In this document: piece by piece, positions 1,669-4,780 of the stretch
Layout of the letters: the number at the start of each line of letters is the position of its first letter
Numbering within the stretch: the first letter of the stretch is position 1
Assembly (NCBI GenBank): GCA_001792535.1
Contig: MGGS01000002.1
Span: forward strand, 71,155 to 112,674
Direction: 5' to 3'
DNA length: 41,520 nt
Origin: Candidatus Woesebacteria bacterium RIFCSPHIGHO2_02_FULL_42_20
GTDB lineage: Bacteria; Patescibacteriota; Microgenomatia; UBA8517
Position numbers and translations under genes: made by a program
Notes under the pieces: generated by a model
The model's database searches: none
Told to the model about the DNA's origin: nothing
Seen by the model: only the letters and a program-made list of their open reading frames with translations

Positions 1669-3876
1669 ATGACTTCAGATTCGTCAGATGTTGAAGTTGG
1701 AGTGCAAACAGCATTTGCAACAACAAGGCAAACAATTAGTAGCGAGTTGTTGAAAACTCTTTCAACAAGCCCTTTTGAACCCTCCCATCCTTATTTAAGA
1801 GAGGTTGAAGATTTAAAGAATATGTGGCCGGATTTTCCCGAAGAAATGATCGAGCTTTATGCTAAGTTTCCCCAAGCTGCGAAAGAAGTAATAGGAAGAC
1901 CCGGTTGGAATAATGTTGTTGCAACAAGGTCAGGATTATATGCACAGTGGTTAATGAAAATGGCTTGGCAGCATCCGATTAAAAATGAAGCTAAACCCCG
2001 CGGGCGGGATCACACAGCCGCACTAGGGGTTTGGGACAGGTTGTCGGAAGAAATGTTTGAGGCAGAAGCCGATAGCGGAGTTATTGTTTCTCCGGGTAAT
2101 GAAATAAGTGCTCCAATAGCTTTATTTGGAAAGATTGTTCCTGAAAATTTTAGAGAAAGTTGTTTGGACCAGATGAATGAGGACAACTGGCCGATTGAAA
2201 TTATAGGAGATAGGGTGTTTTTTAAAGATCCACTTACGTTTTACTTACTTCTTTCTGATAGATTTTTGACAGATGAAGAGGATTTGGGTCCGCATTTTTT
2301 AGGGCTTAACCAGATTGGTATAGGTTTCCACGCGGACATTGGCACTGTCATTGAAAGGTTGGATAAGGCAGAGAGTTTTGAAATTGAAGAGCTTTCAAAA
2401 AATTTCATGCTACTTTTGATTATTGGCGAAAGAATTTTTTTGTGGCCGGATAAGAACGGCGGGTTTGATGATTATTTAGTCGGAATCGCACGAAAAATGG
2501 GCGGAAAAGAAGGTGTTGATTTGGCATATGCGGTATACCGGGATATCAGTAGCATTTATTCAAAATTGGATATTTCAAAATCTCCAAGACATGTTCTGGG
2601 GCCGATTTTAACTAAAGAAAAAATTGCCGAAAGTTTGGACAAGGCCAAAAGAGCAATTCAAACCGAAGAAAGAATTGTAATGTATCCTAATCGTGAAGTC
2701 GTGGTGAAACCGGAGGTTATTGATCAGGCTCTTACTCGCGCGAGAGCCTTGGGAGATCCGCGTGAGTTCTGGCAAGATGTTTTTATTCGCAGTGGGGTTG
2801 ATTTTAAAATGACCCAAAGATTCGAAAGAGGGAAATATAAAGCAGATTTGGAAGATTTTTATGAATCGGCCTTGGCAGAGCGCAAACAAATAGCGGTGGA
2901 AATACTTGCGACAGCAGACATGGTGGGTTTTGACCCGAAAAAGGCTCTAGCATTGGCTGCCGGCGCACAGCTTTTTTGGGGTGAGGCAGTTATCCCGATT
3001 GACAATGCTGCCGGTGTTCACAAAAGGCGAAAGGGGTTAGATACCGCGGTTGCCAGAGAGGGCGTGGGACCGGCGATCGAAAAATCCATGGTAGCACTGG
3101 GGGGAATTTTTAAAGACGCTTTCGGGGAAAAAGCAGGAGGAAAGGTTGGTTTGGAGTTAGCAGAAACTCTGGAGTCGACTTTTGGAGGAAGCGTGCGTTT
3201 GAGAGATCTGGGCTGGGATAGCGGCTATGGTGAACACAGAAAAAATATAGGCAGGTTAATCAGCGCCTTCAGTTTATTTACCAGGTACATGGGCGAACAA
3301 AGCGGTTTCCCCGAGGCGACTAAATATTTGGCCCTGGCTCAAAGGCTCGGTCACACTTTGGGGCAGATTAATAATGCTATGGAAGATGTCAACCCGCCCG
3401 GTGAAAAACATGAGGCCGGAAGCGACGTCGGGCAAGTGACTATATTTTGGAAGACTTTAACCGAGCTTCCCGAAGACGTAGTGGGTACAGACGAAAAAGA
3501 CTTTGTAAAGCGAGTTTTTGATGCGGAAAGCGACAGGAAAATTTCCGGCAGGCCAAGAACTCCCGAAGAAGAAAGTGATTTCGAGAAAGTTTTAAGATTA
3601 GGCGGGCGCTATCAGGGTGATGTCGCGAGAGCTTTGGAGAGTAAAGCCAGAATGCTTTATGAACGCTCGAAAAGGTGCATCGACAAAGCAGTGAAACTGT
3701 TACCCAGAGTTGATCAAAGAGTCGAGAAAGCGAGGGAAGTGTTTTTGTTTGGCGCAGATTACCAATGGGACAAATTTCAATCTTTTATTCCAAGAGACGA
3801 AGCTGAAGGAGCGCCGATTCCGATTGACACGACAATGCTTTCTCCAAAGACGCCTGTTCCCGTAGAGGTTAATTAG
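1669..3876 (+). CDS. 735-aa protein; C-terminal half resembles a degenerate isoprenyl diphosphate synthase
   Basis: The ATG lies one base after the upstream stop. Residues 1-350 match no family I recognise; they are rich in Trp, acidic residues and predicted helices. Residues ~405-705 follow the order of motifs in trans-isoprenyl diphosphate synthases: a helix GFDPKKALALAAGAQLFW (420-437), the slot of the first aspartate-rich motif (PIDNAAG, 443-449), then KRRKG (452-456). The second motif slot reads GQINNAMED (565-573), followed by GSDVGQVT (584-591) and a closing helical region to ~705. In active enzymes these slots are DDxxD; here only single Asp residues remain, so catalysis by Mg-diphosphate chemistry is doubtful. 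No signal peptide or membrane segment is seen. It may be a pseudoenzyme that binds an isoprenoid or a partner protein. The fold call is by eye and needs structure prediction; the gene itself is certain. Confidence 0.6.
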   Translation: MTSDSSDVEVGVQTAFATTRQTISSELLKTLSTSPFEPSHPYLREVEDLKNMWPDFPEEMIELYAKFPQAAKEVIGRPGWNNVVATRSGLYAQWLMKMAWQHPIKNEAKPRGRDHTAALGVWDRLSEEMFEAEADSGVIVSPGNEISAPIALFGKIVPENFRESCLDQMNEDNWPIEIIGDRVFFKDPLTFYLLLSDRFLTDEEDLGPHFLGLNQIGIGFHADIGTVIERLDKAESFEIEELSKNFMLLLIIGERIFLWPDKNGGFDDYLVGIARKMGGKEGVDLAYAVYRDISSIYSKLDISKSPRHVLGPILTKEKIAESLDKAKRAIQTEERIVMYPNREVVVKPEVIDQALTRARALGDPREFWQDVFIRSGVDFKMTQRFERGKYKADLEDFYESALAERKQIAVEILATADMVGFDPKKALALAAGAQLFWGEAVIPIDNAAGVHKRRKGLDTAVAREGVGPAIEKSMVALGGIFKDAFGEKAGGKVGLELAETLESTFGGSVRLRDLGWDSGYGEHRKNIGRLISAFSLFTRYMGEQSGFPEATKYLALAQRLGHTLGQINNAMEDVNPPGEKHEAGSDVGQVTIFWKTLTELPEDVVGTDEKDFVKRVFDAESDRKISGRPRTPEEESDFEKVLRLGGRYQGDVARALESKARMLYERSKRCIDKAVKLLPRVDQRVEKAREVFLFGADYQWDKFQSFIPRDEAEGAPIPIDTTMLSPKTPVPVEVN

Positions 3877-4741
3877 TTCCTACGTATTTATAAACGACTC
3901 TATTTACCTGTTCGGCTATTAGGTATGGAGGTTTTTCTCCTCTTGAAGGCTTATTGCTGATTCTAAAAAAACCAGCCGGGCCAGGGGTTTTTAATGCGTC
4001 CATGGCTTCCAGAAGCATCAAGGCACAGTTATTGATATCAACAAAAGGGCGGGGATATTCTGGTTGTTCGCTTAGTGTTCTTTTACAAACCTGTCTTATT
4101 GCATCTGGTCGGTAAGCGTTTGTGTGGAGCGTATCAGCAAATAGGTATGCAAGCCGCCCTTCTCGTGTGTCAGGAGTTCTGACGAACATTCTGATCATCC
4201 CTGCAAGATACAAAGGTAAGGATTCTAATCTAACAAGATCATTTGTTATAACGTGTAAACCATTACCGGTATTTAAAAGAGACCAGTCAGCATGTACAAG
4301 TCTTGAAGAGTCAATAATATCGAAGACAGCTGTTCCAATCGGTTGCTGGTCAAGGTCGAAAGTTGGAAATGCAAAAAGATCTAATTTGCCACTGGCGCTT
4401 CTTACTCCCACGGTCGGGCTGATTGCGCAGATCTCTCCGTGCTTTGATTTCGGCCACAACCCGTTTTCAAGAGTCCAAATAATTTCACTCATACTGTAAT
4501 CGCTGGGTACTCCTTGGAGTGGCGTGGTATAGCCATAAGTCGGAGGATGTTCGGGATAATGAGAAAAGAATAACCTTTCAATCTCGGGATGGCTTCGTAT
4601 TAATTCTGCCCATACAACAGGAGAACTCCTAAAAGAGTTCACTTTTACTTCGTGAGTTTCAGGAGGAGGAACTATTTGAAAGGTTTGAATATCATGAATT
4701 ACTATTTGTTTCCCTCTGAGGTCAACCGCTTCTTGTATCAT
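3869..4741 (-). CDS. Uncharacterised protein with primase-polymerase-like motifs
   Basis: This 290-aa protein is convergent with the 735-aa gene and overlaps its 3' end by 8 nt. I chose the ATG at 4741; a TTG two codons earlier also fits, and neither has a Shine-Dalgarno site. No full family is recognised. Three short motifs come in the order seen in archaeo-eukaryotic primases of the LigD/PrimPol type: FDLDQ (Asp129, Asp131), then LNTGNGLHVI (158-163, with His163) about 29 residues later, then PFVDIN (Asp235). In LigD-type primases the matching motifs are DLDP, SGGKGLH and IFID. The middle region is otherwise unlike typical primases, so this is a hypothesis. Other possibilities are an unrelated metal-dependent enzyme or a phage-derived protein. 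Confidence 0.5.
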   Translation of the reverse strand: MIQEAVDLRGKQIVIHDIQTFQIVPPPETHEVKVNSFRSSPVVWAELIRSHPEIERLFFSHYPEHPPTYGYTTPLQGVPSDYSMSEIIWTLENGLWPKSKHGEICAISPTVGVRSASGKLDLFAFPTFDLDQQPIGTAVFDIIDSSRLVHADWSLLNTGNGLHVITNDLVRLESLPLYLAGMIRMFVRTPDTREGRLAYLFADTLHTNAYRPDAIRQVCKRTLSEQPEYPRPFVDINNCALMLLEAMDALKTPGPAGFFRISNKPSRGEKPPYLIAEQVNRVVYKYVGTN

Positions 4742-4780
4742 GACCAATTTTACTACTATAAGTCAATAATGTTAACCTTA

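Follow-up and report, generated by a model that had tools for sequence, protein, structure and literature searches.

A winged-helix ATPase and a predicted isoprenyl-synthase-like partner form a conserved gene pair in Microgenomates bacteria that looks like a regulatory or conflict cassette

A two-gene unit, by its appearance a regulatory or conflict cassette not described before, was found in the genome of Candidatus Woesebacteria bacterium RIFCSPHIGHO2_02_FULL_42_20 (GCA_001792535.1; G000), a 1.08 Mb genome of the Microgenomates group (lineage Microgenomatia). The stretch of DNA analyzed, referred to here as the window, was 41,520 nt long and covered positions 71,155–112,674 of contig MGGS01000002.1. 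The favored reading, to which a probability of roughly 42% is given, is a horizontally moving and autoregulated regulator–partner cassette in which the partner protein acts by binding a ligand or another protein. The first-pass annotation had described a degenerate isoprenyl synthase-like protein coupled to an ATPase/DNA-binding gene; the view of the pair as a conserved, self-contained, moving and recombining unit is added here.

The partner gene was located on the forward strand at 1669–3876 of the window, where an ORF with an ATG start encodes 735 amino acids (AA), and the motifs quoted in the first-pass annotation were present in its translation. Directly upstream, with 1 base between the two genes, the ATPase ORF occupied 402–1667 on the same strand (421 AA). 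The first ~335 residues of the partner (1669–2670) contained no known domain, as the first-pass annotation had also found, and within the family this region diverged and recombined the most. Residues ~335–705 (2671–3783) comprised the trans-isoprenyl diphosphate synthase-like domain. A 292-AA ORF with a TTG start was also observed on the minus strand (3869–4747); it runs towards the partner gene and shares the last 8 bp with it. This ORF had no match in Pfam, and the likeness of its stretch DWSLLNTGNGLHVI to primase-polymerase motifs was judged only by eye.

Relatives of the partner protein were rare. A single-sequence search covering 374 genomes of the class revealed relatives in only two other genomes, both belonging to another family, Candidatus Gottesmanbacteria, so that three of the 374 genomes, including that of the window, carried the gene. 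The sampled genomes of the window organism's own genus and family yielded no partner relative. Four full-length relatives could be recovered by profile search, namely G109:C9 (MFJU01000009) and G199:C69, G199:C55, and G199:C25 (MFJM01000069, 55, and 25), while the rest of the Gottesmanbacteria family and 380 genomes drawn from the phylum contained no more full-length relatives. Neither the ATPase nor the partner gene was found in viral contigs.

The window partner shared 23–28% identity with its relatives. Among the ATPases, identity was 40–50% across the pairs and 95% between the two closest. The ATPase directly preceded the partner on the same strand in all five pairs from the three genomes, separated by 1 bp in four pairs and by 6 bp in the fifth; thus the pairing holds even though the pairs diverge down to 23% (partner) and 40% (ATPase) identity. 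A class-wide ATPase profile search placed only the five paired copies at an E-value of about 1e-200 or below, whereas the next match (1e-20) scored mainly through its C-terminal part, and no ATPase homologue of the close group was seen away from the partner gene. The sample is small, being five pairs in three genomes. The five-taxon trees of the ATPase and the partner were not fully congruent and their support was moderate (86%), and strict co-descent is therefore not claimed. In G199:C25, genes for a PEP-utiliser mobile-domain protein and a histidine phosphatase follow immediately after the isoprenyl-like gene, possibly in the same operon (L021, 2481–4497). Literature searches for a pairing of an isoprenyl-synthase-like protein with an ATPase returned nothing relevant, most subscription papers lying outside their reach.

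When the 735-AA protein was searched alone, no Pfam or NCBIfam match and no credible PDB match could be obtained, a GTDB scan with the single sequence gave no match, and the AlphaFold2 (AF2) model built from it was unusable (pLDDT 40.8). A moderate model (mean pLDDT 59.5) was obtained from a five-row alignment consisting of the family members only, with ordinary synthases absent from the rows. Foldseek comparison of this model against the PDB placed isoprenyl synthases of the trans fold at all of ranks 1–32, with probabilities of 0.95–1.00, a best E-value of 4.1e-3, and TM-scores normalized by target of about 0.45–0.64. When the C-terminal domains of all five members were aligned by hhalign with 15 synthases from the class, the probability was 98.3% (E-value 1.7e-14, 249 columns), and a profile of the same 15 synthases scored the family members at 38.6, 31.5, 23.5, 19.4, and 8.0 bits, all above the best of 1000 shuffled sequences (6.7 bits); this synthase set is mildly biased, as most of it was fetched with the partner family's own profile. 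The PF00348 model matched G199:C25 at 3.5e-6 (26.8 bits) and, in the genome scan, at 2.3e-7 (29.5 bits, above the cut-off of 27), while the window protein had no PF00348 match at the curated cut-off. Further, a search of the PDB with a four-row family profile hit E. coli octaprenyl diphosphate synthase (E-value 0.007). The model and the profile comparisons together confirm a predicted trans-isoprenyl diphosphate synthase fold for residues ~335–705, and the isoprenyl-synthase likeness proposed for the C-terminal half in the first-pass annotation is borne out. The membership of the window protein itself leans on its relatives, since alone it was the weakest of the five, with 8.0 bits compared to 6.7 for the best shuffled sequence.

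The partner shares with PF00348 synthases, such as E. coli octaprenyl diphosphate synthase (5ze6/3wjk), the all-helical fold, the motif order, both Asp-rich motif positions, K406 and R454 of the diphosphate-binding region, and D586 after the second motif. Unlike these synthases, it has depleted metal ligands, an extra N-terminal part of ~335 residues, and a fixed pairing with a DNA-binding ATPase, and the helix-B Arg and helix-G K-T pair are not conserved. At the first motif position (D445-NAA-G449; 3001–3015), where DDxxD is canonical, the window copy reads DNAAG, which does not fit DDx2-4D, compared to DNVVD in both G199:C69 and G109, DQIID in G199:C55, and DDTID in G199:C25. At the second position (N569-AME-D573; 3373–3387; canonical DDxxD) it reads NAMED, compared to NDIED in G199:C69 and G109, CDIED in G199:C55, and NDFDD in G199:C25, and with the residue before the motif included the sequence is NNDFDD in G199:C25 and NNAMED in the window copy. 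The first and fifth Asp of the first motif were kept in four of the five copies, all but that of the window, and the full DDxxD was present in one, G199:C25. In the second motif the fifth Asp was kept in all five while the first was replaced by N or C. The erosion of both motifs described in the first-pass annotation thus holds for the window copy (DNAAG, NAMED), but it is not a trait of the family.

K406 and R454, at diphosphate-binding positions of ordinary synthases, were kept in all five copies, the helix-B Arg was absent from all five, and the helix-G K-T pair was not in canonical form. In addition to these two elements, the window copy has lost the fifth position of the first motif (G449) and the second position of the second motif (A570). 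Across the partner family the metal site has thus shifted, with the greatest erosion in the window copy; we infer that this copy is enzymatically inactive. The first-pass proposal of an isoprenoid-binding pseudoenzyme linked to a signalling ATPase is partly supported, the pseudoenzyme part being plausible for this copy. The metal ligands of the window copy appear too depleted for normal chain elongation, and its pocket therefore most likely serves binding.

The first-pass annotation had assigned the gene one base upstream to the P-loop ATPases and noted an OmpR-type winged helix in it; domain searches bore out the winged helix. The winged helix (residues 345–420) matched PF00486 (Trans_reg_C) at 55.2 bits against a cut-off of 26.2, while no receiver-domain match was found and a P-loop domain was present instead. 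The Walker A motif (GxxxxGK[ST]) was present as GINAIGKT (residues ~32–39) or variants of it in the four complete copies, the fifth ATPase being cut by the contig start. The window ATPase scored 22 bits against AAA_14, below the cut-off of 27, and a distant winged-helix relative passed NPHP3_N (31.7 against 24.8). The Walker B motif is LDFQN, and ATP hydrolysis is uncertain because Q stands where a catalytic E is usual. The related ATPase compared between L022 and L024 was under purifying selection (dN/dS 0.14). The combination of a P-loop NTPase with a DNA-binding winged helix and the direct-repeat operator geometry are shared with STAND/NACHT-type regulators and OmpR/PhoB-family factors; unlike these, the ATPase of the pair lacks a receiver domain and always has an isoprenyl-synthase-like gene directly after it.

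A common promoter layout was revealed upstream of the ATPase gene in all four pairs with available upstream DNA, consisting of CTTGAT, exactly 42 bp, TTGACA-N5/6-TTGACA with a period of 11 or 12, a 17-bp spacer, and a −10-like hexamer located 15–38 bp 5′ of the ATPase start codon. The window elements, all on the forward strand, were CTTGAT at 304–309, TTGACA-N6-TTGACA (period 12) at 346–363, the second copy of which is also the −35 box, and TAATAT at 381–386, 15 bp 5′ of the ATPase start. Outside these elements the upstream DNA of the four pairs was unalike, and the repeat core had only three exact matches in the 1.08 Mb window genome. Direct repeats are the usual binding sites of OmpR/PhoB-type winged helices (PMC3960148); given this preference and the conserved layout, the direct repeat is a candidate winged-helix operator, and autoregulation by the ATPase's winged helix at this predicted site is likely. 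TTGACA-N5/6-TTGACA repeats were also observed near unpaired winged-helix genes of one clade (L072 3495, L103 5269, L109 4325, and L117 4197), where they may mark the operators of those regulators. At L175 (3782–6774; G182:C22), an ATPase (GHGKT) with a winged helix, broken by a masked N run, comes before an unknown protein of 574 AA; the promoter of this ATPase has a 37-bp element and TTGAC-like repeats in common with the isoprenyl pairs, while its partner is unrelated.

The location of the pair pointed to an insertion. Among 29 other genomes of the window organism's family for which the rpsG region was fetched, 26 had the start of fusA 45–1133 bp from rpsG, while in the window genome the distance was about 6.0 kb and contained a BrnT-like gene, the pair, and an opposite-strand ORF. 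Just upstream of the window, in the same insertion, the BrnT-like toxin ORF is followed by a short ORF with a 4 bp overlap (L025, 7176–7771), likely a toxin–antitoxin pair by eye. The insertion between rpsG and fusA and the patchy distribution together indicate that the pair has spread horizontally.

Comparison of G199:C69 and G109:C9 revealed a mosaic pattern, which represents one comparison of two genomes. The ATPase DNA was 93.8% identical over 1122 bp, and synonymous differences were saturated between codon ~315 in the ATPase fragment and partner residue ~370, dropped over the next 100 residues, were near zero around the second Asp-rich motif, rose again at residues 564–608, and were zero from 624 to the end. 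The downstream small gene was also replaced, after which homology returned at 92%. The block pattern appears best explained by recombination replacing the N-terminal part of the partner. The small genes 3′ of the two pairs are lipoprotein-like and mutually unlike (L022 3157–3822; L024 12087–12713), with flanking DNA that is 92–94% identical.

Under the favored regulator–partner reading, the first gene would encode a STAND/NACHT-like P-loop ATPase whose winged helix binds the TTGACA direct repeat overlapping its own −35 box, so that the operon would control itself. The second gene, on the same predicted transcript, would supply a dedicated partner with the isoprenyl-synthase-fold domain behind a variable N-terminal module. 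The old diphosphate/prenyl pocket would bind either a ligand of the isoprenoid-diphosphate type or another protein, and the bound state of the partner would set the state of the ATPase–winged helix, presumably by physical interaction. Action by binding is favored because of the eroded site, the dedicated DNA-binding neighbor, and the conserved operator. Against the cassette reading, G199:C25 with DDTID and NNDFDD could be an enzyme, and mosaic exchange fits conflict or recognition loci better than it fits a metabolite sensor.

The pair may instead be a toxin–antitoxin-like conflict module. The winged-helix ATPase would then act as repressor or antitoxin, and the isoprenyl-synthase-like protein would be an effector damaging to the cell itself or to an invader; it could, for instance, sequester or consume isoprenoid diphosphates that lipid-carrier synthesis requires. 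This conflict reading we consider rather unlikely, although the insertion, mosaic exchange, and patchy spread speak for it; the latter two fit both this and the regulator–partner reading, and sequence alone cannot separate them. A precedent is provided by the AbiE type IV toxin–antitoxin system, a two-gene operon of the winged-helix AbiEi and the nucleotidyltransferase AbiEii (PMC3985639). The pair resembles AbiE in the order of regulator then partner and in its compact, self-contained promoter; unlike AbiE, its partner has an isoprenyl-synthase fold and its regulator an ATPase domain. Moreover, PADLOC found weak generic ATPase matches only and no named defence system in the pair, and the active site of the window copy is eroded.

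More distant winged-helix relatives, present in 78 of 357 class genomes, add to the case for the conflict reading through their coupling to other partners; against it, the relatives with other partners lie in other branches of the tree. Of 59 winged-helix genes examined, 21 were followed within 15 bp, or with an overlap, by an ORF of 300 AA or more on the same strand, compared to 21 of 170 other ORFs called mechanically at the same loci (p = 1.7e-4). About 13 of the 21 coupled partners showed, on inspection by eye, a nucleotidyltransferase-like GS...DxD pattern, and those of them that were scanned against Pfam had no match. Translational coupling of winged-helix regulators without a clear Walker A to large GS...DxD proteins was observed at L064, L066–L069, L071, L075, L096, L097, L108, L112, L113, and L121, and several of these partners form one family by BLAST. 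Other partners were a methyltransferase (L081, 2398–5181), a deaminase-like protein by eye (L077, 3747–4880), and a HAD hydrolase (L102, 4899–6038). The sequence link between the pair and this wider set was mainly the winged helix, and hhalign of the partner's N-terminal part and isoprenyl domain against the partners of other winged-helix regulators gave probabilities all below 2%. Treating the isoprenyl pair and the nucleotidyltransferase-coupled proteins as one system was considered and rejected; the link stays an analogy because the regulators of the latter sit in other deep branches of the tree and mostly lack Walker A. A more speculative and doubtful reading is a new kind of diversifying cassette in Microgenomates, comparable to a recognition or conflict system. 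In it, an autoregulated winged-helix ATPase would offer a partner slot to widely differing proteins of enzyme origin, resembling nucleotidyltransferases, methyltransferases, deaminases, HAD proteins, or isoprenyl synthases, and partner modules would be exchanged by recombination.

It is possible, above all for G199:C25, that the partner is an active specialized prenyltransferase with unusual metal ligands, regulated by the neighboring gene, which modifies a peptide or makes an unusual prenyl product. The retained Asp residues of both motifs and the PF00348 score of G199:C25 agree with this. Furthermore, an otherwise normal-looking 353-AA isoprenyl synthase of the class (G082; L059, 1276–2337) carries DDIID and NDVKD, and an N at the first place of the second motif thus need not mean inactivity. 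Set against the positions that the window copy has lost, the proposal seems unlikely. Less probable by far is that the protein serves a heteromeric prenyl diphosphate synthase as its inactive regulatory subunit. Plant GPPS small subunits have the same fold and likewise lack one or both Asp-rich motifs (PMC7284688), and one ordinary synthase was present in the window genome (G000:C8). Unlike the case of those subunits, the fixed neighbor here is a DNA-binding regulator. The PF00348 genome scan found no trans-synthase in G109, G086, G182, G126, and G051 of the Gottesmanbacteria family, and a cis-prenyltransferase was present in all four of those tested (G109, G086, G182, and G051). The subunit role is therefore improbable, as G109 (93% complete) has the pair and no ordinary trans-synthase was found there. 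Equally remote is a decaying gene, the window copy being a non-functional relic of an enzyme: its motifs are the most eroded of the five and it is alone in its organism's family, but 735 codons remain open, the coupling, promoter layout, and core residues are intact, and the related ATPase is under purifying selection.

The regulation and conflict systems of these bacteria are, to our knowledge, hardly known, and we know the isoprenyl-synthase fold almost only from the making of prenyl chains. The exact promoter layout of the pair lends itself to a simple DNA-binding assay, and the graded active sites beside the same partner gene, from DDTID/NNDFDD to DNAAG/NNAMED, make the step from enzyme to binding protein testable. 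If the regulator–partner reading is true, a DNA-binding ATPase would have acquired its partner from a fold for making prenyl chains.
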